Shown: piece by piece, positions 2,029-32,184 of the stretch
Position numbering within the stretch: the first letter of the stretch is position 1
How the letters are laid out: each line of letters starts with the position of its first letter
From: Catellatospora sp. TT07R-123
GTDB lineage: Bacteria > Actinomycetota > Actinomycetes > Mycobacteriales > Micromonosporaceae
Direction: 5' to 3'
DNA: 64,000 nucleotides
Assembly (NCBI RefSeq): GCF_018327705.1
Contig: NZ_BNEM01000001.1
Span: 1,240,001 to 1,304,000 of the forward strand
The notes under the pieces: model-generated
What the model saw: only the letters and a program-made list of their open reading frames with translations
Databases searched by the model: none
Told to the model about the DNA's origin: nothing
Made by a program: the position numbers and the translations under genes

Positions 2029-2242
2029 CGCGGTCATCGCCGGCCTTCGTCGAGCTCCGCCCGCATGGCCCGGACGACCGCTCCGCATTCACCGCCAGGC
2101 GCCGACCTTAGACGGCTTCCATTCATCAAGATGAGTCAGGCGTTTGTTTTATCGCATGTGGATGACCGTATGTGCGAATGCGTCTCATCAGGAGATGATC
2201 AGATAACACTTCTCTGATCGAATTTTGGAAATCGACCGATCA

Positions 2243-2282
2243 TTGCGAGCGCTTTTCAGGTCGGTTATGTTAACGGTCTCAT
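2243..2282 (+). promoter_or_regulatory. GH127 promoter with proximal AraR-type operator
   Basis: TTGCGA (2243-2248), a 17-bp spacer and TATGTT (2266-2271) make a plausible promoter. The operator ATGTTAACGGTCTCAT (2267-2282) overlaps the -10 box; its left half is perfect and its right half has one mismatch. About 120 bp of leader would precede the GH127 start at 2402. Confidence 0.55.
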
Positions 2283-2401: not shown

Positions 2402-5140
2402 ATGTCATCGTCCATCAACAGGCGCCGGGTACTACAGGCTGCTGGGGTGGCGGCAGCAGCCACCACCCTGCCCGCCCTCACCGCCACCGAGGCGGCGGCG
2501 GCGCTTCCGCCCGCGCGCGCCGACCTCGGCGTCTCGGCGTACCCGTTCGACCTCGGCCAGGTCCGGCTCACCAGTAGCCGGTGGCTGGACAACCAGAACC
2601 GGACCCTGGCATACCTGCGGTTCGTCGACGTCGACCGGCTGCTGTACGTGCTGCGGGCCAACCACCGCCTGTCGACCAACGGCGCCGCCGCCACCGGCGG
2701 CTGGGAGGCGCCGACGTTCCCGTTCCGCAGCCACAGCCAGGGGCACTTCCTCACCGCCTGGGCGCAGGCCTGGGCCGTGCTCGGCGACACCACCTGCCGG
2801 GACAAGGCCACCCAGATGGTCGCCGCCATGGCCGCCTGCCAGGCCAACAACAGCGCGGCCGGGTTCAGCGCCGGCTACCTGGCCGGCTTCCCCGAGTCCG
2901 ACTTCACCGCCCTGGAGAACCGGACCCTCAGTAACGGCAACGTGCCGTATTACGCCGTACACAAGACCCTCGCAGGCCTCCTGGACGTGTGGCGGCTGAT
3001 CGGCAGCACGCAGGCCCGCGACGTGCTGCTCGCGCTGGCCGGCTGGGTCGACACCAGAACCGCGCGGCTGACCTCCACCCAGATGCAGGCGCAGCTCGGC
3101 ACCGAGTTCGGCGGCATGAACGCGGTGCTGACCGACCTCTACCAGCAGACCGGCGACAGCCGCTGGCTGACCGCCGCGCAGCGTTTCGACCACGCCGCCG
3201 TGTTCAACCCGCTGGCCGCCAACTCCGACCAGCTCAACGGACTGCACGCCAACACGCAGGTGCCCAAGTGGATCGGCGCCGCCCGCGAGTACAAGGCGAC
3301 CGGCACCACCCGCTACCGCGACATCGCCGTCAACGCCTGGAACATCACCGTCAACGCGCACACCTATGTGATCGGCGGCAACAGCCAGGCCGAGCACTTC
3401 CGGGCCCCGAACGCCATCGCCGGATACCTCAACAGCGACGCGTGCGAGGCCTGCAACTCGTACAACATGCTGAAACTGACCCGGGAGCTGTGGCTGCTCA
3501 ACCCCGACCAGGCCGCCTACTTCGACTTCTACGAACGTGCCCTGCTCAACCACCTGCTCGGCCAGCAGAACCCGGCCGACAGCCACGGCCACGTCACCTA
3601 CTTCACCCCGCTCAACCCCGGCGGTCGCCGAGGCGTCGGTCCGGCCTGGGGCGGCGGCACCTGGAGCACCGACTACGGCACCTTCTGGTGCTGCCAGGGC
3701 ACCGGCATCGAGACCAACACCAAGCTCATGGACTCGATCTACTTCTACAACGGCACCACGCTCACGGTGAACCTGTTCACCCCGTCGGTGCTGGACTGGT
3801 CGCAGCGGGGCATCACGGTCACCCAGAACACGGCCTTCCCGGTCAGCGACACCACCACCCTGACGGTCACCGGAAGCGTCAGCGGCAGCTGGTCGATGCG
3901 CATCAGGATCCCCGGCTGGACCACCGGCGCCACGATCAGCGTCAACGGCACGGCGCAGAGCATCACCACCACCCCTGGCACGTATGCCACCCTCACCCGC
4001 TCCTGGACCTCCGGTGACACGGTGACGGTGACCCTGCCGATGCGAGTGGTCATGCGGGCCGCCAACGACGACGCCAACGTCGCCGCGGTCACCTACGGTC
4101 CGGTCGTGCTCGCCGGCAACTACGGCAACACCTCCCTGTCGTCGCTGCCGGTGCTGACGACCAGCTCGGTGACCCGTACGAGCACCACCGCCCTGGCTTT
4201 CACGGCCACCGCCAACGGTGCCAGCGTCAACCTCGGCCCGTTCCACGACGCTCAGGGCTACAACTACACCGTCTACTGGAACGCCACCGGCCAGGGCTCG
4301 ACCGGCGGAAACGCCGCCTTCCGGCTCCTGAACGCCGCCAGCGGACTGGTGCTCGGCGTGCAGAACATGTCGACCGCCGACGGCGGCCTGGCCATTCAGT
4401 GGGCCGACAGCGGCACCGCGGACCACGACTGGGAGCTGCTGGTCAGCGGCTCGGCGCTGCGGCTGCGCAACGCCAACAGCGGCAAGGTCCTCGGCGTGGA
4501 GAACATGTCCACCGCCGACAACGCCCGCGTGCTGCAGTGGACCGACAACGGCACGGCCGACCACAACTGGACCCTGGTCGACGTCGGCGACGGTACCCAC
4601 AAGATCCGCAACGCCAACAGCGGCAAGCTGCTGGCGATCCTCAGCGGCTCGACCACACAGGGCGCCCAGGCCGTCCAGGACCCGGACAACGGCGGCGCCG
4701 ACAACCTGTGGCGGCTCATCCCCGACGGTGCGCGGCGCATCCAGAACGTCGCCAGCGGCCTGGTGCTGGGGGTCCAGAACATGTCCACCGCCGACGGCGG
4801 CCTGGTCATCCAGTGGGGTGACAGCGGCACCGCCGACCACCTGTGGTCCGCGGTCGTGGACACCGGCGGTTACCTGCGGCTGCGCAACGCCAACAGCGGC
4901 AAGGTCCTCGCCGTGGAGAACGCCTCGACCGCCGCCGGCGCCCGGGTCCTGCAGTGGTCCGACAACGGCACCGCCGACCACCGCTGGCGGCTGCGCCACG
5001 GCGGCAACGGCTGCTTCCGTATCCAGTGCGCCAACGGCGGCAGGCTCCTGGCCGTCAGCGGCGGATCGACCGGTCAGGGTGCTCAGATCGTGACCGCCGA
5101 CGACGCCGGCTCCGACGACCGGCTCTGGCGCTTCCTGTAA
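2402..5140 (+). CDS. Secreted GH127 beta-L-arabinofuranosidase with C-terminal RICIN lectin repeats
   Basis: A 912-residue protein. It starts with a Tat signal (NRRRVLQAAG at 6-15, then an Ala-rich stretch). Residues about 45-620 are a GH127 domain: the SDACEACNS segment (Glu349, Cys351) and the FWCCQGTG segment (Cys430, Cys431) match the Glu and three Cys that hold zinc in bifidobacterial HypBA1, where the first of the paired Cys is the nucleophile; Glu331 is a candidate acid/base. Residues about 640-912 are two beta-trefoil sets of RICIN repeats (LRNANSGKVLGVENMSTA and similar). GH127 releases beta-L-arabinofuranose from plant hydroxyproline-rich glycoproteins and related glycans. GGAGAG precedes ATG 2402. 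An AraR-type operator sits in its promoter. Confidence 0.92.
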   Translation: MSSSINRRRVLQAAGVAAAATTLPALTATEAAAALPPARADLGVSAYPFDLGQVRLTSSRWLDNQNRTLAYLRFVDVDRLLYVLRANHRLSTNGAAATGGWEAPTFPFRSHSQGHFLTAWAQAWAVLGDTTCRDKATQMVAAMAACQANNSAAGFSAGYLAGFPESDFTALENRTLSNGNVPYYAVHKTLAGLLDVWRLIGSTQARDVLLALAGWVDTRTARLTSTQMQAQLGTEFGGMNAVLTDLYQQTGDSRWLTAAQRFDHAAVFNPLAANSDQLNGLHANTQVPKWIGAAREYKATGTTRYRDIAVNAWNITVNAHTYVIGGNSQAEHFRAPNAIAGYLNSDACEACNSYNMLKLTRELWLLNPDQAAYFDFYERALLNHLLGQQNPADSHGHVTYFTPLNPGGRRGVGPAWGGGTWSTDYGTFWCCQGTGIETNTKLMDSIYFYNGTTLTVNLFTPSVLDWSQRGITVTQNTAFPVSDTTTLTVTGSVSGSWSMRIRIPGWTTGATISVNGTAQSITTTPGTYATLTRSWTSGDTVTVTLPMRVVMRAANDDANVAAVTYGPVVLAGNYGNTSLSSLPVLTTSSVTRTSTTALAFTATANGASVNLGPFHDAQGYNYTVYWNATGQGSTGGNAAFRLLNAASGLVLGVQNMSTADGGLAIQWADSGTADHDWELLVSGSALRLRNANSGKVLGVENMSTADNARVLQWTDNGTADHNWTLVDVGDGTHKIRNANSGKLLAILSGSTTQGAQAVQDPDNGGADNLWRLIPDGARRIQNVASGLVLGVQNMSTADGGLVIQWGDSGTADHLWSAVVDTGGYLRLRNANSGKVLAVENASTAAGARVLQWSDNGTADHRWRLRHGGNGCFRIQCANGGRLLAVSGGSTGQGAQIVTADDAGSDDRLWRFL

Positions 5141-11156: not shown

Positions 11157-12219
11157 GCCGGCACCTGCTCCTTCGGCTGGTCGGTGACGGCCGGCGCGGC
11201 GGGACCGGCTGCTCGGCGGGGGACGATCCGGGCCCGGAACGCGGGGGCCTGGACCAGGCATACGATGATCACGACGACCGCCTTGAACAGCAGCGACGTC
11301 TGCGGCGAGATGTTCATGGCGTACACGGTCGTGGTCAGGGTCTGGATGATCAGCGCGCCGAGGATCGTGCCGCCGAGGGAGAACCGGCCACCGGCCAGTG
11401 ACGTGCCGCCGATGACGACCGCGAGAATGGCGTCCAGTTCGATCCACTGACCGGCGGCGTTGCCGTCGGCGCTGGAGACGTTCGCGGTGATCATGAATCC
11501 GGCGATGGCGGCGCAGACCGCGCTGATGACGTAGACCAGGAACATGATCCGGCCCGACCGGATACCGGCCAGCCGGCTGGCCTGGGCGTTGCCACCGACC
11601 GACTCGATGATCAGCCCCAGGGCCGTACGCCTGGTCACCAGCATGATCAGCACCGTCACGGCCGCCGCGATGAAGATCGATAGCGGCAGCGTGAGCAGGT
11701 GCCCCACGCCGATCGCCTTGTACGGGTCGGAGTTGATCGTGATGATCTGACCCTCGGTGATCAGCTGCGCCAGCCCGCGCCCCGCCACCATCAGGATCAG
11801 CGTGGCGATGATCGGCTGGATGCCGATCACCGCGACCAGCGCCCCGTTCCAGGCACCGAGGACGAGTGCGAGACCGACCCCCAGCACCAGGGAGATCAGC
11901 ACGCCGCCGACGGCGTTCTGATCCGGCTGCTTGCTGATGTAGAGGCAGGCCACGGCGCCGCTGATCGCGCACATCGAGCCGACCGACAGGTCGATCCCAC
12001 CGGTGGCGATCACCAGGGTCATGCCCAGCGCCACCAGGATCAGCGGCGCCGACAGCCGAAGGATGTCGACCAGGCTGCCGTACAGGTGGCCGTCCTTCAT
12101 CTCGACGGCCAGGAACCCGGGCCGGTAGACCGTGTTGGCGACGACCAACGCGATGAGCGCGAGGGCGGGCCAGAACAGCGAATGGCCGGCGATCGCATCG
12201 CGGCGTGCGGTCCAGGTGC

Positions 12220-25213: not shown

Positions 25214-25242
25214 ATGTTAACGGTCACATCAACGTTGGTCAA
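25214..25242 (-). promoter_or_regulatory. GH29 promoter with AraR-type operator
   Basis: On the minus strand TTGACC (25242-25237), a 17-bp spacer and TAACAT (25219-25214) form the promoter. The operator ATGTTAACGGTCACAT (25214-25229) overlaps the -10 box. The promoter overlaps the 3' end of the LacI-like gene at 25239. Confidence 0.75.
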
Positions 25243-26219
25243 CGGCTCTGCGACCGCGGCGGCCCGCTGCTGGCCCGGACGACCAGCGTGGGCACCGCCC
25301 ACGGGCACCCTGCCGCCGTCGGCAGTTCGCGTTGCTCGATCGTTGCCAGCAGTGTCGTCAGACACGACCGCCCGAGCGCGTCGAAGTCCTGCCGGACGGT
25401 GGTCAGCGACGGGGTCAGGTATTCGCCTTCGGGGATGCCGTCGCAGCCCACGACGCTGACGTCGTCGGGTACCCGCACGCCGCGCTCGCACAGCGCGCGC
25501 AGCATGCCCATGGCCTGCTGGTCGCTGGCGCAGAACACCGCGCTCACGTCGGCGCGCTCGGCCAGCAGCCGGCCCGCCTCGTATCCGGACTCCGCGCCCC
25601 AGCCGCCGAGCATGATCGGCGGTATGCGCCGCCCGGCCTGTCGCAGCGCGGCACGCCATCCGTCAGCGCGGTGTCGTGCCTGCTGCCAGTCCTGAGGTCC
25701 CGACAGGTGCCACACCGTCTCGTGTCCGAGGTCCAGCAGGTGTTCGACAGCCAGTCGCGCACCGAGCGCGTGGTCCACGGTGGGGACCTGGACGTGCCCG
25801 AAGGTACCGGCGCCTACGACGACGGTGGGAACAGCCGAGTGCAGAATGCCGGCTGCCACCCCCGGGGTCAGGGGGGCGATGATCACGGTGCCGACCACCG
25901 GCTGGCGGGCGAGTCGGCCGATCGCCTCCGCCATGCCGACGTCGTCCGGCCGCGCGAGTTCGACGATGCAGGTGCCGTATCCGGCGCGTCTGGCCGCCTG
26001 TTCGACGCCTCGCATGGTCACGGCCGTGCTGTACCTGACGGCATCGAACGCGACCACCCCGATGAGGTCTCGGTGTCGGCCGGTACGGCCCTGGGGCATG
26101 GGCTGCAGCCGACGGGACGGCCGTGCGCTGAGCATGGCCCCGCCCCTGGCAGCGGCGGCCCCCGGGGCCGACGCCGCCTCCCGCCGCCGCGAGCTGGCTC
26201 TGGCCACACGTCCGTCCAT
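25239..26219 (-). CDS. LacI-like sugar-sensing protein lacking the DNA-binding domain
   Basis: A 326-residue protein. From about residue 50 (DLIGVVAFDAVRYSTAVTMRGVEQAARRAGYG) to the end (VVGCDGIPEGEYLTPSLTTVRQDFDALGRSC) it is closely similar to the sensor domains of the two LacI paralogues at 838 and 7463. The first 50 residues are Arg/Ala/Ser-rich with no DVARLAGVSHQTVSRV helix-turn-helix or hinge, and no such motif appears in the other frames nearby. A strong GAAGGAGG (26222-26229) sets ATG 26219, so the short form is properly translated rather than a missed start. It may be a decaying repressor, or a co-repressor forming mixed dimers with the full paralogues. Function is not known. Confidence 0.75.
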   Translation of the reverse strand: MDGRVARASSRRREAASAPGAAAARGGAMLSARPSRRLQPMPQGRTGRHRDLIGVVAFDAVRYSTAVTMRGVEQAARRAGYGTCIVELARPDDVGMAEAIGRLARQPVVGTVIIAPLTPGVAAGILHSAVPTVVVGAGTFGHVQVPTVDHALGARLAVEHLLDLGHETVWHLSGPQDWQQARHRADGWRAALRQAGRRIPPIMLGGWGAESGYEAGRLLAERADVSAVFCASDQQAMGMLRALCERGVRVPDDVSVVGCDGIPEGEYLTPSLTTVRQDFDALGRSCLTTLLATIEQRELPTAAGCPWAVPTLVVRASSGPPRSQSR

Positions 26220-26395
26220 CGCGCCTCCTTCGCATCCGGGCCCGGGCGGCCGCGGTCGTCGGACACGCCTGCGCTCTCCGCACCGTCCATCTGCTAGGAC
26301 GCGAGAGTCAGGGTGCCCTCGTGGGCAGGAGGCTTCGAGCCGGGGGTGCCGTAACGGAAACTGCGCGGTGACAACCACGACATACGAGTGCGGTG

Positions 26396-27991
26396 TCAGC
26401 CCGCCCAGGCGGGTTGTCTGATGAAGGAACTCTGCCCGGCGAACTCGGCGCTGCCGTCGGGCACATCGATGTAGAAGGCACCGTCGCGGAAGCGGATGAC
26501 CAATGCGGGGTAGTTGTGCGCCTGCAACTCGACCGACCCGGCTATCCGGCCGGGCCGGGGGCAGAACGTGGCATCCTCCCGGAACAGCGCGGTGGTGTCC
26601 TCGGGGCTGAGCCGCAACCGCAGCTCGTAGTGGCGCAGATAGCGGCCGTCGGCGGCACGGAGGGTGACACAGTTCGCGTCCGCGAGCCCCCTGACGACCG
26701 TGAACGTCGCCTGCCTGCGGACCTGCTCGCTACTCGATCCGTCGACGGCGCCGAGCGCCGCGTACATCCCGGCGTAGGTCAAGTAGGTGCCGCGAGCACC
26801 TGCCGATTCCAGCGACCACGTTCCCCACGGCAGGGTGGGTCCCGGCGACGCGCCGGCAGATGGACTGTGCTGCGGCGCGGACGGGCTGGCCGGTCCTGGC
26901 GACGGCGAGGGCGTCGGCGAGGGCGACACCGCGGCCGGCGACGGGGAGCGGGTCGGAGCGGCAGGGCTCGGGTCCGCGACGACCTGCGGCGGCTGTGGTG
27001 ACGGTGGCCAGTTCGCATACACCGCGGTGGCGCCCACCGCGAGTGCCAGGCCTGCGGCGAGGCTCGGCAGCGGGTGAGCGGACACGCCCGCCGCGAGTTT
27101 GCCGATCACCGAGGTGCGGGGGCCGACGGCCGACGCCGCGGCCACGGAACCGATCAGTGCCTGACCGGACGACCCGGCTGCGCCTGCCAGCAGGCCCTTG
27201 GCCGCGAGCGCGGCGGTGAGCGCGGCGGGAACGGCCAGTGGTGCCACGCTGAGCAGCAGGCGCTCGAGCGGCACGCGGTCGGCGGTGCCGGCCGTGCACA
27301 CCGGGCAGGTGCGGACATGACGGCCGAGCCGTTTGCGCCATACCGAGGTATGGCCGCCGTCCCAGCCGGCCGCGGCCGCGGCCAGCTGGGGGCAGCGGGG
27401 CTGCGCGGTCAGGGCCACCTCGATCGCCCACGCGGTGTCGAGCTGCTCACGCATGCGCTGCAGGCGCACGCCGGCGTGGGCGATCGTCAGTCCCATCGCG
27501 GCGGCCACCTCACCGCGGGTGAGCAACCCGGCCTGTTCCTGCCACCACAGTGAGAGGACCAGGCGGTACTCGGGGTCCAGCCAGTTGCTCGCCTCGGCGA
27601 CCTGGCGGCGCTGGCCGGCCAGCTGCAGGTGGAGGACGGCCGTGTCTTCGAAACCGGCGTCGGTGTCGGCGAACTGTTCCATGCCGGCGACCGCGGTGTC
27701 GACGGCAGCCCGCCGACGCCGCCGGTGCCGGTAGGAACTGATCTGATGGACCGTTATCGCGACCAGCCAGGACCGGAAGCTGTCCGGCTCGCGCAGCTTC
27801 GGCAGGTCGCGCGCGACGCGCAGCATCGTCTCCTGGACGACGTCGTCGACGTCGGCGTGGCCGCCGAGCGCGCGCCCGACGATGTTGTAGACCAGCGGAA
27901 GGTAGGCCGAGATCAGGTCACCCTGTGCCCGCCGGTCGCCGTCGCGCGCCGCGATGACCAGTTCCGAGTGGTCCAGGTCCCTGATCGTCAA
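26396..27991 (-). CDS. ECF sigma factor fused to zinc finger, hydrophobic segments and AbfB arabinose-binding domain (1)
   Basis: About 531 residues from TTG 27991, chosen because AGAGGTG lies 6 nt upstream and the paralogue begins at the same place; GTG 28000 and ATG 28048 are alternatives. In order: sigma region 2 (about 12-95, LREPDSFRSWLVAIT), sigma region 4 (about 135-190, LTRGEVAAAMGLTIAHAGVRLQRM), a zf-HC2-like HVRTCPVC motif (His225, Cys229, Cys232), hydrophobic stretches at about 245-272 and 308-327, a Pro/Ser linker (328-390), and an AbfB/CBM42 domain (391-527, RAADGRYLRHYELRLRLSPEDTTALFREDATF). AbfB domains bind arabinofuranose side chains. The protein could sense arabinan outside the cell and release or activate its own sigma part. 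The number of membrane spans is uncertain. Confidence 0.88.
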   Translation of the reverse strand: MTIRDLDHSELVIAARDGDRRAQGDLISAYLPLVYNIVGRALGGHADVDDVVQETMLRVARDLPKLREPDSFRSWLVAITVHQISSYRHRRRRRAAVDTAVAGMEQFADTDAGFEDTAVLHLQLAGQRRQVAEASNWLDPEYRLVLSLWWQEQAGLLTRGEVAAAMGLTIAHAGVRLQRMREQLDTAWAIEVALTAQPRCPQLAAAAAGWDGGHTSVWRKRLGRHVRTCPVCTAGTADRVPLERLLLSVAPLAVPAALTAALAAKGLLAGAAGSSGQALIGSVAAASAVGPRTSVIGKLAAGVSAHPLPSLAAGLALAVGATAVYANWPPSPQPPQVVADPSPAAPTRSPSPAAVSPSPTPSPSPGPASPSAPQHSPSAGASPGPTLPWGTWSLESAGARGTYLTYAGMYAALGAVDGSSSEQVRRQATFTVVRGLADANCVTLRAADGRYLRHYELRLRLSPEDTTALFREDATFCPRPGRIAGSVELQAHNYPALVIRFRDGAFYIDVPDGSAEFAGQSSFIRQPAWAG

Positions 27992-28737
27992 CCGCCCCAC
28001 CTCTGCCCATGCCCCCTGCGACGCGGCGCCGCAGACCGCCTGCGGCATGGCGGCGTTCGACTACCGTCCGGGGCCGGTGTCCGCGGCGGCAGTTCCGGCC
28101 TTCGGGAGTGGCAGCCAAATTACTGCCAGTTGCCACCGAGGGTCAACAAGGCTCCTCTTCACGAGCGCGGTGGATTCGCCCGGCGATGCCGTCGAGGCGC
28201 CGGGCGTGGGTGGCAGCAACGAGCCGAGGTGCGGGGCGACGCGCCTCGACCCTTCGCTTATTCGTACAAATCTATGTTAGCGCTCACATTACAGGCCAGG
28301 CTGCGGACCGTGAGGCGGCATGTGCCCGAGGCGGGCGCCGGGCGCACCCATTCGGTAACCGAGGAGATTGCCAGAGTGTCACCCCACGTTCAAGAGGGCA
28401 CTGACGATCGACCGGCCAGCGCACTGCTCCGGCCACCTCCCCCGGTCGGCTCTCCTGCGCCGTTTCCAGAGGCAGAGGGCACGTCGTCATGCCCGGCAGA
28501 ATCCAACGCCGCAGGAAGTGAGTGCCTGCGACCATCTCGGCAGGACGGCCATAACACTATCGCCGCCAAAATCCACCGTCCTCGCGCGGTGAAGGATTGT
28601 CATCAGAATCCGTTACACAGTGCCGGCGGCGAAGTCGCCCACGTGCCACGGCGTGCCCGCCCCGCCGCGTCTTGACGCCGGAGCGATCCTGGGCGACAGT
28701 CAACCCCCTCCATCCACTGCCGACAGCGATACGGACC
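27992..28737. other. Divergent promoter region between the two sigma-AbfB genes
   Basis: About 745 bp without a supported gene. It carries one AraR-type operator near the middle (28274-28289) and AT-richer patches at 28255-28290 and 28545-28570. Each sigma gene may also have its own sigma-dependent promoter here, but the recognition sequence is unknown. Confidence 0.6.
28274..28289. promoter_or_regulatory. AraR-type operator between the sigma-AbfB genes
   Basis: ATGTTAGCGCTCACAT matches the consensus with one mismatch in the right half. Its position between the divergent genes would let the AraR-like repressor control one or both sigma factors. Confidence 0.75.
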
Positions 28738-30276
28738 ATGCCAGCCACCAGCCCAGACCACGCCGCTCTCGTCATCGCGGCCCAAGCCGGCGACCGCCGC
28801 GCCCTCGAAACCCTGTTCCGGGCGTACCTGCCGTTCGTCTACACCATCGCGCGCCGAGCGCTCGACTCCGACGACGTCGACGACGTCGTCCAGGACACGA
28901 TGGTCCGGGCCGTTCGCGAGCTGCGGGGACTGCGCGAGCCGCACACCTTCCGGGCCTGGTTGGGCACCATCGCCGTCCGGCAGGTCAGCACCTGCCTGCA
29001 TCGACGGCGAACCTCGCCGGAACGCGCCGACGGCCTCAACGATCTGGTCGAAGTGCCGGACGCGGACCCGGCTTTCGAAGAGCTGACCATGCTGCGCCTG
29101 GACCTGGCCGCACAAAGAGGCCAGACGACGCGGGCCGCACACTGGCTGGACGACGACGACCGCGTACTGCTGTCGCTGTGGTGGCTGGAGGTGGCGGGCG
29201 GGCTCACCCGCACCGAACTGGCCGCGGCCGCCGGTGTCAGCGTCGCCCACGCCGGGGTACGCGTTCAGCGTATGCGCCGACAACTGGAGCTGTGCCGCGC
29301 CCTCGTGGCGGCACTCGACCAACAGCCGCGGTGCGCCTCGCTCGAGAGTCTGACGGCCGGCTGGGACGGCACGCCGACCTCGGCGTGGCGCAAGCGCCTG
29401 ATCCGGCACGTACGTGCCTGCCAGACCTGCGATCAGGCAGCCGACGACCTGCTGCCCGCCGAGCAGCTGCTCATCGGGCTCGCCCTGCTGCCCGTCCCGG
29501 CCGCGATCACGGCCGCGGTGATCGGCAAGGGCATCGGCGCAGCCGCGTCGGCGGCGCCCCTCGCCGGTGCGGCGAAGACGGGGCTGCTCGGCAGTGTGGC
29601 GAAGGCGTTCGCGGCCGCGCCGGTCGCCTCGACGGTAGCCGGGTCCGTGGCGGCGGCTGCCGTCGTCACCGCGATCGCCTGGCCGGCACCCGCGCCCGCG
29701 CCACCCGCCGCGGTCGAGACACCCCGGCCGTCAGCCGCGACGGCCGCGCCCGCGGCGACCGCCACGGTGAGCCCTTCAGCCGTACGCCCCACCCCGAGCA
29801 CCACACGGCCCCGGCCGCTGCCCAGCCCGGCTGGACTGCTGGCGACCGGGCCGGTGTCGCTGGAGGCCGGTGACTCCCCCGGCCGGTATGTGACCACCGC
29901 CGACGGGTTCGGCGTGCTGCAGCCGCTGTCGGCCACCAGCGTCATGACGGCTCGCCAGCAGGCGACCTTCGAGGTGGTGCCGGGTCTGGCCGACCCGAGG
30001 TGCTTCTCGTTCCGCGCCGCTGACGGACGTTATCTCCGCCATTCGTCGTGGCGGCTGCGGTTGGATCCCAGGATCGACACCGCGCTGTTCCGCGGTGACG
30101 CGACGTTCTGTGTACGGGCGGGAGCCCTCCCCGGCACGGTCCTGCTCGAGGCGTCGAACTACCCCGGCTGGTTCATGCACCGGCGAGACGCCCAGATGTG
30201 GGTCGACCAGAGTGACGGCTCGGCCGCCTTCCGTGCCGCCGGTTCCTTCCGGGTCCGGTCGGCGCTGGCCGGATAG
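28738..30276 (+). CDS. ECF sigma factor fused to zinc finger, hydrophobic segments and AbfB arabinose-binding domain (2)
   Basis: A 512-residue paralogue of the divergent gene, same architecture: sigma region 2 (about 11-95, LREPHTFRAWLGTIAV), region 4 (about 135-190, LTRTELAAAAGVSVAHAGVRVQRM), HVRACQTC zinc motif (His224, Cys228, Cys231), hydrophobic stretches at about 241-265 and 296-315, an Ala/Pro/Thr/Ser linker (316-370) and an AbfB/CBM42 domain (371-508) with FRAADGRYLRHSSWRLRLDP and LEASNYPGWFMHRRDAQMWVD. ATG 28738 begins the conserved sequence; the in-frame start at 28597 gives an unsupported extension. Keeping two diverged copies suggests two ligands or two promoter sets. Its AbfB has two clear repeats with His residues in the ligand positions, more canonical than copy 1. 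Confidence 0.88.
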   Translation: MPATSPDHAALVIAAQAGDRRALETLFRAYLPFVYTIARRALDSDDVDDVVQDTMVRAVRELRGLREPHTFRAWLGTIAVRQVSTCLHRRRTSPERADGLNDLVEVPDADPAFEELTMLRLDLAAQRGQTTRAAHWLDDDDRVLLSLWWLEVAGGLTRTELAAAAGVSVAHAGVRVQRMRRQLELCRALVAALDQQPRCASLESLTAGWDGTPTSAWRKRLIRHVRACQTCDQAADDLLPAEQLLIGLALLPVPAAITAAVIGKGIGAAASAAPLAGAAKTGLLGSVAKAFAAAPVASTVAGSVAAAAVVTAIAWPAPAPAPPAAVETPRPSAATAAPAATATVSPSAVRPTPSTTRPRPLPSPAGLLATGPVSLEAGDSPGRYVTTADGFGVLQPLSATSVMTARQQATFEVVPGLADPRCFSFRAADGRYLRHSSWRLRLDPRIDTALFRGDATFCVRAGALPGTVLLEASNYPGWFMHRRDAQMWVDQSDGSAAFRAAGSFRVRSALAG

Positions 30277-30334
30277 GCGACATCCGCCGACTGACGCAGC
30301 CGCATCGCCGCCTCCCGCGCCGATCGCCAGCTTT

Positions 30335-30350
30335 GTGTGAGCGCTCGCAG
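30335..30350. promoter_or_regulatory. Weak AraR-type operator upstream of GH62
   Basis: GTGTGAGCGCTCGCAG keeps the GAGCGCTC core but departs from the consensus at the right flank. It is centred 103 bp from the better site at 30438-30453. Confidence 0.45.
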
Positions 30351-30424
30351 CCCCGATAGGGCTCGACATCAGCGCGCCCTGAAGGCATGCAGCAGAGACG
30401 GGGCCTGAAACATTTTCGTAACCC

Positions 30425-30453
30425 TTGACGAGCGCCCATGTTATCGGTCACAT
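30425..30453 (+). promoter_or_regulatory. GH62 promoter region with AraR-type operator
   Basis: The operator ATGTTATCGGTCACAT (30438-30453) is a near-consensus copy. TTGACG (30425-30430) with a 17-bp spacer to TCACAT (30448-30453) is a possible promoter with a poor -10 box; the leader to GTG 30676 would be about 215 nt. Confidence 0.6.
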
Positions 30454-30663
30454 TCGACGAGCGGGACAGTCCGGCGCGCAGGCAACGTGGCGCCACAGTG
30501 ACCGCCTGGAGCGGGCGGCGTCTTCCATGACGTGCTCCACGGCGCACCCACGACCCCGTCTCCGGGCAGCACCACAGTGGTCGGCCGTCCGACGCATCAC
30601 GACGGCCGATCACGGCGATACGTCGCGCCCTGGACCGTCCCGTCGTGCCCTGACCGATCCCCG

Positions 30664-31245
30664 AAGGAGGATGCCGTGACCGGCATCAGCACACCGCCCA
30701 CTACCCGCCGGCGAGGCTGGCGTGCCGCGCTGACCATGGCCGTGGTCACCGCCCTGGCCACCGCGGGCATGGCAGCCGTCAGCACCAGCAGTGCCCAGGC
30801 CGCGACCGTGGACACCAACGCCTGGTACTACCTGGTCAACCGCAACAGCGGCAAGGCGATCGACGTCTACAACTTCTCCACCGCCGACGGCGGCCGCATC
30901 ACCCAGTGGACCCGCAGCACCGCCAACAACCAGCAGTGGCAGTTCGTCGACTCCGGCGGCGGCTACTACCGCATCAAGTCCCGCCACTCCGGCAAGGTGC
31001 TCGACGTCTACAACCTCTCCACCGCCAACGGCGGCTCGATCGTCCAGTGGTCCGATCTCAACGGCACCAACCAGCAGTGGCGCCTGGCCGACTCCCCCGA
31101 CGGCTACGTCCGGTTCATCAACCGCAACAGCAGCAAGGCCCTCGAAGTCCAGGGCGCCTCCACCGCCGACGGCGGCAACATCGTCCAGTACGACGACTGG
31201 GGCGGCACCAACCAGCAGTGGCAGCTCGTCCCCGTCGGCGCGACC
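30664..31245 (+). repeat. Duplicated 5' module (SD, signal peptide, RICIN), copy 2
   Basis: Closely similar at DNA level to 5243-5830, including GAAGGAGGATGCC before the start codon. The two copies lie 25 kb apart, in front of unrelated catalytic domains. Confidence 0.75.
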
Positions 31246-32184
31246 CCCAGCCCGTCCACGTCCACCCCGCCCGGCCAGTGCTCGCTGCCGTCCAGCTACC
31301 GCTGGACCTCCACCGGCGCCCTGGCCACCCCCAAATCAGGCTGGGCCTCACTCAAAGACTTCACCACCGTCCCCTACAACGGCAGACACCTCGTCTACGC
31401 CACCACCCACGACAACGGCTCCACCTGGGGCTCCATGAACTTCAGCCCGTTCACCAACTGGACCGACATGGCCACCGCCACCCAGAACACCATGACATCC
31501 GGCACCGTCGCACCCCACCTGTTCTACTTCGCCCCCAAGAACACCTGGGTCCTCACCTACCAATGGGGCCCCACCGCGTTCTCCTACCGCACCACCAGCG
31601 ACCCCACCAACGCCAACGGCTGGTCCGCCGCACAACCCCTGTTCACCGGCACCATCACCGGCTCCGGCACCGGACCCATCGACCAGACCATCATCGGCGA
31701 CAACACCAACATGTACCTGTTCTTCGCCGGCGACAACGGCAAGATCTACCGCGCCAGCATGCCCATCGCCAACTTCCCCGGCAACTTCGGCACCACCTAC
31801 ACCACCATCCTGACCGACACCACCAACAACCTCTTCGAAGCACCCCAGGTCTACAAAATCGCCGGCCAGAACCAATACCTCATGATCGTCGAAGCCATCG
31901 GCAACAACGGCCGCTACTTCCGCTCCTTCACCACCACCACCCTCAACGGAACCTGGACCCCCCAGGCCGCCACCGAGAGCAACCCCTTCGCGGGCAAAAC
32001 CAACAGCGGCGCCACCTGGACCAACGACATCAGCCACGGCGAAATCATCCGCAACACCGCCGACCAGACCATGACCATCGACCCCTGCAACCTCCAACTG
32101 CTCTACCAAGGCCGCGCCACCAACTCCGGCGGCGACTACGGCCTACTGCCCTACCGACCCGGCGTACTCACCCTCCAGCGCTGA
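30676..32184 (+). CDS. Secreted GH62 alpha-L-arabinofuranosidase with N-terminal RICIN domain
   Basis: A 502-residue protein read from GTG 30676, fixed by GAAGGAGG at 30663-30670. Signal peptide 1-43; RICIN trefoil about 48-187 with QQW repeats; Pro/Ser/Thr linker about 188-200; GH62 domain about 201-502 ([25 protein letters not shown]). Asp228 in LKDFT is the likely base, the Asp in [12 protein letters not shown] the modulator and the Glu in [10 protein letters not shown] the acid. GH62 enzymes remove single alpha-L-arabinofuranosyl groups from arabinoxylan and arabinan. It is transcribed after the second sigma-AbfB gene on the same strand, but from its own operator-bearing promoter. Its front module is a near copy of that of the GH43 gene at 5255. 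Confidence 0.95.

Follow-up and report, generated by a model that had tools for sequence, protein, structure and literature searches.

Proposed Sensing Outside the Cell by a One-Piece Sigma Factor

How might an actinomycete register arabinose-bearing hemicellulose outside its cell and pass that information directly to RNA polymerase? The question is raised by two adjoining genes of Catellatospora sp. TT07R-123 (Micromonosporaceae), here called sig1 and sig2, at positions 26396 to 30276 of the window, the 64,000-nucleotide stretch of DNA that was analyzed (contig NZ_BNEM01000001.1, positions 1,240,001 to 1,304,000; coordinates below are those of the window). Each encodes an extracytoplasmic function (ECF) sigma factor that ends in an AbfB domain, a member of carbohydrate-binding module (CBM) family 42. 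We consider it probable, though well short of assured, that such proteins are membrane-tethered one-component ECF sigma factors, gated by arabinofuranose and released by proteolysis. The evidence comes from the architecture of the proteins, the residues kept in their AbfB domains, and the genes and DNA elements beside them.

Architecture of the Paired Sigma Factors

The gene sig1 (26396..28048, minus strand, 550 aa) and the gene sig2 (28738..30276, plus strand, 512 aa) encode paralogues with 50% identity in a pairwise alignment and are divergently oriented. Both were delimited by open reading frame (ORF), Pfam and NCBIfam evidence; the start of sig2 was taken at ATG 28738, and the program-made ORF list begins this gene at TTG 28597. 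Orthologues of sig1 occur in L010/L139 and L133, and sig2-type relatives in 10 other genomes of the genus. A preliminary description of this DNA had presented the genes as a divergent pair, which they are here, but their adjacency was seen in this genome only; two full-length copies also occur in genomes G008, G009, G013, and G023, on different contigs.

Relatives were collected by a pattern-based scan of species genomes with sig1 and sig2, and the best 80 of 430 loci, all with actinobacterial titles, were kept. The protein alignment of AbfB versions (n = 44) consists of 42 loci and the window pair; L030 and L049 were left out (start before a stop; frame stops at 11224), and the L030 gene itself reads on intact. 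Locus-based counts (operator scan and tblastn neighbors, also n = 44) include these two. The alignment of relatives without AbfB (n = 35) leaves out L074, which has a start-choice problem and is included among the 27 control loci.

Sigma70_r2 and AbfB were both matched in all 44 aligned proteins, with Pfam E-values in sig1 and sig2 of 6.5e-16 and 5.9e-13 for Sigma70_r2 and of 8.2e-36 and 7.2e-37 for AbfB, the latter above cut-off. The NCBIfam sigma70-ECF model TIGR02937 was also above cut-off for both, spanning regions 2 to 4 (residues 40-203 of sig1, 22-184 of sig2); with Sigma70_r2 and the helices of an AlphaFold2 model, it places regions 2 and 4 of sig1 at residues 24-214 (27407..27979, minus strand). 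The Pfam region-4 and zf-HC2 models had no match in either protein at E <= 0.1, and the zinc motif was read directly from the alignment: C219, H244, C248, and C251 of sig1 (C219 ... H244-X3-C248-X2-C251; 27296..27394, minus strand) are invariant in 44 of 44 AbfB proteins, and the same four positions are kept in 35 of 35 relatives without AbfB. The corresponding region of sig2 is C199 ... H224-X3-C228-X2-C231 (29332..29430, plus strand). A first hydrophobic stretch, which contains an invariant proline, starts about 12 residues after the motif and may be part of the zinc/anti-sigma region. The last hydrophobic segment is proposed as a membrane span: in sig1 a single span with its N terminus inside (residues 327-346; 27011..27070, minus strand), suggested by the model, hydropathy, and charge in relatives, and in sig2 residues 296-314 (29623..29679, plus strand), suggested by hydropathy. 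The linker that follows is rich in Pro, Ser, Ala, and Thr, with a median of 47 aa and a mean of 69% of these four residues across the 44 aligned proteins; that of sig1 was placed by composition at residues 347-408 (26825..27010, minus strand), and the predicted local distance difference test (pLDDT) score is below 50 for residues 284-403. The AbfB/CBM42 domains themselves occupy residues 409-546 of sig1 (26411..26824, minus strand) and 374-506 of sig2 (29857..30255, plus strand). Sigma regions 2 and 4, the HX3CX2C motif, hydrophobic segments, Pro/Ser linker, and AbfB domain, all claimed in the preliminary description, are thus borne out for both proteins by Pfam, TIGR02937, and alignment.

The AlphaFold2 model of sig1 (mean pLDDT 73.7) is helical over the sigma and zinc parts and again at 328-346; a linker of low confidence then leads to a domain rich in strands at 409-546. 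In Foldseek searches the strand-rich domain matched CBM42 structures (template modeling score, TMt, 0.86 for 9fnk and up to 0.87), while the helical part matched sigmaE/RseA and SigW/RsiW chains, but with a high root-mean-square deviation over two domains. Within the AbfB domain, Cys 460 and Cys 496 never vary, and each aligns with a cysteine of AbfB 1wd3; we take the two to form a disulfide there.

A Single Predicted Arabinofuranose Pocket

In AtAbf43C, arabinose is bound in a beta pocket (H70, Y73, D89) and a gamma pocket (H118, Y121, D136) (PMC12493170). By our own alignment to that protein, all 44 sensor AbfB domains keep the beta-pocket His and Asp (H473 and D492 of sig1). Both residues of the alpha pocket are kept in none, and both of the gamma pocket in six, which include neither sig1 nor sig2, leaving one pocket only in 38 of 44. 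By comparison, 15 other distinct AbfB domains from three genomes had three pockets (eight domains) or two (seven), and never one. This comparison set, which is part of the AbfB domains of these genomes, was drawn from 29 matches that reduced to 18 distinct domains of more than 110 aa, minus L107 (which repeats the domain of L110) and two sigma-less membrane proteins. The ligand residues of the domain, on which the preliminary description had laid weight, have therefore not been lost altogether; what each domain keeps is one intact pocket, not several. The beta pocket is the predicted binder of terminal alpha-L-arabinofuranose.

The two sigma-less, membrane-anchored AbfB proteins also have the beta pocket only, and membrane-bound AbfB versions are therefore associated with reduction to a single pocket. 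These proteins are encoded at G000:C2:3078606-3079337 (L108, L122) in the genome of the window and at L109 in G004; each has one hydrophobic segment after Arg-rich residues, and no sigma gene was recognized adjoining either.

Linkage to Arabinoxylan Genes

The window is an arabinose region, encoding glycoside hydrolases (GH) of family GH127 and GH43 (two), arabinose isomerase, an FGGY kinase, ABC transporters, and LacI-type proteins, as well as GH29, GH62, a GH141-like protein, GH6, GH59, and GH11. The gene next after sig2 encodes a GH62 arabinofuranosidase with a ricin-type lectin domain (30676..32184, plus strand, start taken at GTG 30676; Pfam E = 1.3e-151), and a GH127 beta-L-arabinofuranosidase with ricin-type lectin domains (Pfam) lies at 2402..5140 (plus strand, start taken at ATG 2402). 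The preliminary description had placed the fusion beside arabinofuranosidase genes, and this holds well beyond the window: by tblastn, GH62 was found in 33 of 44 AbfB loci (in 31 over >=70% in one piece) and GH10 likewise in 33 of 44 (18 over 70%), whereas both were found in 0 of 27 loci of relatives with other, uncut C-termini. The nine shortened loci described below had pieces only, of GH62 in three and of GH10 in two. GH62 over 70% was present in 24 of 25 Streptomyces orthologue loci, 23 of which form one tree group (L030 and L049 stand outside the tree), and in 7 of 19 other AbfB loci.

The same linkage is seen gene by gene. The nearest downstream gene encoded GH10 in 26 of 41 cases and GH62 in 25 of 41, Streptomyces usually having a GH10-lectin-GH62 fusion; neither family was among the 25 commonest of 59 families in 47 neighbors of non-AbfB relatives. 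(Downstream neighbors were available for 41 of 42 loci, L049 being out, and upstream neighbors for 36 of 42, with L021, L022, L027, L031, L050, and L075 out; for uncut relatives 47 of 51 genes were used, and at L056, L077, and L082 no sigma ORF was present.) Of the 10 genus loci whose flank is long enough, 6 have GH62 after sig2 (the window, L128, L130, L131, L134, and L138; the sequence ends inside GH62 in L131 and L138, and L135 and L046 end too soon to count). A locus from a different genus of the family (L142 of G039) has sigma-AbfB, GH127, and GH62 genes in a row.

The AbfB domain could merely anchor or localize the protein to plant fiber or to the wall glycans of the cell itself, while some other cue, for instance envelope stress, releases the sigma part. 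Arabinose is among the whole-cell sugars of Micromonosporaceae, and the C-terminal domains of relatives (CAP, Glyco_hydro_cc, Pel9A-like beta-helix, and Lcl_C) include some that are not obvious sensors of plant sugars. A fiber anchor, however, should profit from several pockets, which the sensor domains have mostly given up and the other AbfB domains have kept; the linkage to GH62 and GH10 is confined to AbfB versions; and Streptomyces walls are not known to contain arabinan. An anchoring role is thus unlikely, and we prefer the reading of the AbfB domain as an arabinofuranose sensor.

Just downstream of sig1, the window encodes a LacI-type sugar-binding protein that has no DNA-binding helix-turn-helix (25239-26219, minus strand). 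The same gene, with a conserved AAGGAGG and ATG, adjoins sig1 in L133 and L139 as well and is therefore probably genuine rather than the product of a misread start.

Operators and an Inverted-Repeat Element

Two kinds of DNA element accompany the sigma genes. The first is a LacI/AraR-type operator. One such site, reported in the preliminary description and confirmed here, lies between sig1 and sig2 at 28274..28289, where it departs from the palindrome at one position and stands about 460 bp ahead of sig2; in L128 and L134 it recurs about 460-490 bp upstream of that gene. Another, found by palindrome scan, precedes GH62 (30438..30453). The window holds nine such palindromes with <=3 mismatches, vs. 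0.06 expected, and 14 operators with <=1 core mismatch are spread from 423 to 45929 across the arabinose region. At the latter threshold, 25 operators were counted in the 44 AbfB loci (nine of them in L010) vs. one in 36 others.

The second, absent from the preliminary description, is an inverted-repeat element, RTAACRYTW...GTTAYR, in which the half-sites RTAAC and GTTAY face each other across 61 bp. It precedes sig2 (28551..28617, plus strand) and, at the same 61-bp offset, sig2 elsewhere in the genus. A whole-genome pattern search of the 9.17-Mb genome found it at only one further place, before the GH127 gene (2203..2269, plus strand). In Streptomyces the first search expression located it ahead of the GH10-GH62 gene at 23 of 24 loci (e.g., L019:11823), and another search located it at the remaining one, L024. 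Across about 1.96 Mb of locus sequence there were 37 matches, some being the same place twice or on both strands, vs. none in a reversed control. The strict pattern had no match in G012, G023, or G002, the last of which has a short variant. The conserved footprint with the Streptomyces interior was not found in the window; the two arms and their spacing are all that is common. We did not adopt the Streptomyces footprint as an ECF -35/-10 promoter: by eye, no -10 at a fixed distance is common to the Streptomyces and Catellatospora copies. A scan of 26200-30700 for Sigma-70-type promoters and terminators found nothing.

The operators lend themselves to a different account of the linkage, namely that the sigma factors do not control the adjoining hydrolases at all, that the genes travel together for arabinoxylan use, and that AraR-type repressors provide the local control. 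The density of operators in the window is in keeping with this account, as is the presence of an operator (<=1 core mismatch) between sig2 and GH62 in all six genus loci that have both genes, with a conserved TTGACG immediately before it. Yet only 4 of 44 AbfB loci, one of them in Streptomyces, have an operator in the 500 bp upstream of the sigma gene. In Streptomyces the sigma gene nonetheless stays beside GH10-GH62, and the conserved inverted repeat found there has a single occurrence in each of the two genomes searched. We regard mere co-travel as quite unlikely, and control of the hydrolase genes by the sigma factors as the better account.

Membrane Topology

For the AbfB domain to meet its ligand outside the cell, as the preliminary description proposed, the chain would have to cross the membrane an odd number of times. 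Hydropathy was not accepted as proof of topology; the AbfB set shows two hydrophobic stretches in 26 of 44 proteins and three in 18 of 44. Nor do the AbfB versions themselves decide by charge, with more Lys and Arg before the last stretch than after it in only 12 of 44. The relatives are clearer. Among 26 uncut relatives with other C-termini, Lys plus Arg before the last segment exceeded that after it in 21 and equaled it in 4 (mean 4.0 vs. 0.8); the nine shortened proteins of the 35 were skipped in this count, and the last segment was probably missed in L072 and L087. Because the AbfB versions are homologous to relatives with this clear bias, we read the last segment as a single span, and the AbfB domain is probably outside.

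A cytoplasmic AbfB domain, with two spans or none, would make the protein a sensor of arabino-oligosaccharides inside the cell. The proteins with two stretches, the first mostly more hydrophobic than the last, would suit such an arrangement, as would the undecided charge bias of the AbfB set and the ABC transporter genes of the window; the bias in the intact relatives, the conserved Cys pair, the Pro/Ser linker, and a sigma-less relative with RRR directly before its single hydrophobic segment and AbfB after it all point the other way, and make a cytoplasmic domain very unlikely.

Spread and Origin of the Fusion

An assembly join or chance fusion can be rejected, the AbfB version being present in all 11 genomes searched from the genus (that of the window and 10 more) and in several genera, as is consistent with the 44 aligned proteins that have both ends and with the expectation of the preliminary description that related genomes would share it. 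In other genera of the family, 5 of 26 genomes matched at E <= 1e-100, three of these via AbfB; in other families of the order, 0 of 24 genomes did so.

The 35 relatives without AbfB keep the sigma and zinc part and, when sorted by hand, have a C-terminal CAP domain (11), a glycosyl-hydrolase catalytic core (10), Lcl_C (1), or no further Pfam domain (4), or are shortened (9). No Pfam family matches the C-terminal part of the one-piece sigma factors L058, L060, L085, and L089. The genome of the window has two further one-piece sigma factors, L104 (G000:C1:47649) and L105 (G000:C1:408462), with a C-terminal Pel9A-like beta helix; these are possible pectin sensors. The shortened relatives (L052, L059, L063, L068, L070, L078, and L080 from Streptomyces, together with L054 and L077) keep the sigma part and zinc motif but no longer have the AbfB end, and on the tree they make up a single group that falls within the AbfB groups. 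A programmed stop in these loci was rejected, no AbfB remaining there among the matches listed.

In a tree built by a quick method from the sigma and zinc part, the AbfB label needs four changes, at least two of them forced by the starred branches; gain and loss of AbfB are not separable on this tree. The genes sig1 and sig2 belong to two separate AbfB groups, and a separate Streptomyces AbfB group (L033, L056, L066, and L075) is nested among the CAP and hydrolase types. This nesting suggests that AbfB was joined more than once, the Streptomyces group perhaps being an independent fusion.

A Proposed Mechanism

Taken together, these features suggest the following sequence of events. Inside the cell, the zinc segment, resembling a zinc-binding anti-sigma (ZAS) domain, would act in cis as an anti-sigma factor, preventing sigma regions 2 and 4 from engaging RNA polymerase. 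One membrane span and the Pro/Ser linker would place the CBM42/AbfB domain outside, as judged from the relatives, where its single beta pocket may bind a terminal alpha-L-arabinofuranose carried by arabinoxylan, arabinan, or fragments of these. Binding would trigger cleavage of the stalk or of the membrane span and so free the sigma part, which would activate the GH62, GH10-GH62, and GH127 genes and, in this genus, perhaps its own gene. An AraR-type repressor, whose operators are present, may subject sig2 and GH62 to a further check, by arabinose inside the cell; expression would therefore depend on both outside and inside arabinose.

Several observations weigh against this reading. The Tyr of the beta pocket, the third AtAbf43C contact, is replaced in all 44 domains (Leu in 27, Trp in 9, Phe in 8). 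The AbfB sequences, taken alone, leave undecided whether the number of spans is even. The Streptomyces loci are orthologous, and their linkage counts are accordingly non-independent; GH62 is absent from the examined stretch of the genus sig2 loci L129, L132, L136, and L137, and no GH62 over 70% was found in the Streptomyces AbfB-group loci L033, L056, L066, and L075. The inverted-repeat pattern was derived from the very sites it is used to describe, and no half-site match lies before the sigma gene in 24 Streptomyces loci. A whole-genome control gave one chance match in seven genomes (in G023), so that the lone GH127 site could be a chance match; in its favor, a half-site search of G039 found a copy upstream of GH127 there, with an offset of 62. 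Finally, the half-sites are spaced at 61, 52, or (in L129, as judged by eye) 41 bp, which suggests the helical phasing of a regulator and not a -35/-10 promoter, and the binder may thus be a regulator rather than the sigma factor.

A broader picture can be offered tentatively, as a possibility that we would not yet bet on. A single protein would serve as arabinofuranose receptor, anti-sigma factor, and sigma factor, its CBM42 pared down to one pocket that reads chain ends or fragments instead of clinging to fiber. It would govern a tiny private regulon (itself in this genus; GH62, GH10-GH62, and GH127) marked by the inverted repeat with its three spacings, and would belong to a set of one-piece sigma factors whose outside domains can be exchanged: AbfB (probably acquired more than once), Pel9A-like, hydrolase-like, and CAP domains. 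Such a set would be the actinobacterial equivalent of the clostridial RsgI set, arrived at by fusion. The case names a predicted ligand, terminal arabinofuranose, candidate residues to hold it, adjoining target genes, and a genome-rare DNA element, and therefore makes actinomycete sensing of extracellular hemicellulose directly testable. Such a protein could also find use in engineering, as a one-gene sensor-actuator for arabinoxylan.

Comparison With Known Systems

The preliminary description took the clostridial SigI/RsgI polysaccharide sensors as the nearest known logic. In Clostridium thermocellum, RsgI proteins are membrane anti-sigma factors, paralogues of which have different sensor domains, among them an outside CBM42 in RsgI5, and which are subject to regulated proteolysis (PMC4711584, PMC12203970). 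The precedent is a close one for the sensor, the CBM42 of RsgI5 (9fnk) being the best PDB match of the sig2 AbfB domain (E = 1.1e-20). SigI/RsgI, however, consists of two proteins and uses a different sigma family, whereas here an ECF sigma factor is in the same chain; Pfam found no RsgI_N domain in sig1 or sig2 at E <= 0.1. We therefore reject membership in SigI/RsgI and retain a similarity of logic only. Among the matches listed in our literature search, AbfB/CBM42 was not found on a sigma factor, only on RsgI5, and surveys of ECF classification may list one.

What the preliminary description missed is the one-piece design of the actinobacterial groups ECF48, ECF52, and ECF53, for which the same proteolysis model has been put forward. 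ECF52 proteins have a zinc finger, a membrane region, a Pro-rich extension, and a carbohydrate-binding domain, and SCO4117 cut to its sigma domain can itself modulate development (PMC5826349). ECF48, ECF52, and ECF53 are expected to act via proteolysis (PMC8999054), and some ECF52 and ECF53 proteins have predicted glycosyl hydrolase and carbohydrate-binding domains, described as not validated (PMC10766802). The sig1 and sig2 proteins share with them the sigma domain, zinc-finger motif, and Pro-rich stretch, together with a putative membrane segment and the proposed proteolytic release, and with ECF52 a C-terminal carbohydrate-binding domain, which is AbfB in 44 of 44 proteins here; the likeness is one of described architecture. 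As far as SCO4117 is described, its binding module is smart00776 and its gene lies beside atrA, whereas the proteins described here have an AbfB/CBM42 domain, one pocket, and GH62, GH10, or GH127 neighbors. In IutY of Pseudomonas putida (ECF243), an anti-sigma part is likewise fused behind the sigma factor and is released by Prc and RseP (PMC8999054); IutY, however, responds to the siderophore aerobactin, and what that source says of it mentions no sugar-binding domain.

The sensor domain has its own known counterpart in the CBM42/AbfB domains of secreted arabinofuranosidases, with which it shares the beta-trefoil and the His and Asp of the beta pocket and from which it differs in having mostly one pocket instead of two or three. 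The one-piece design was thus already known; what appears to be new, as far as the literature searched shows, is the proposed arabinofuranose sensor together with the genes linked to it.

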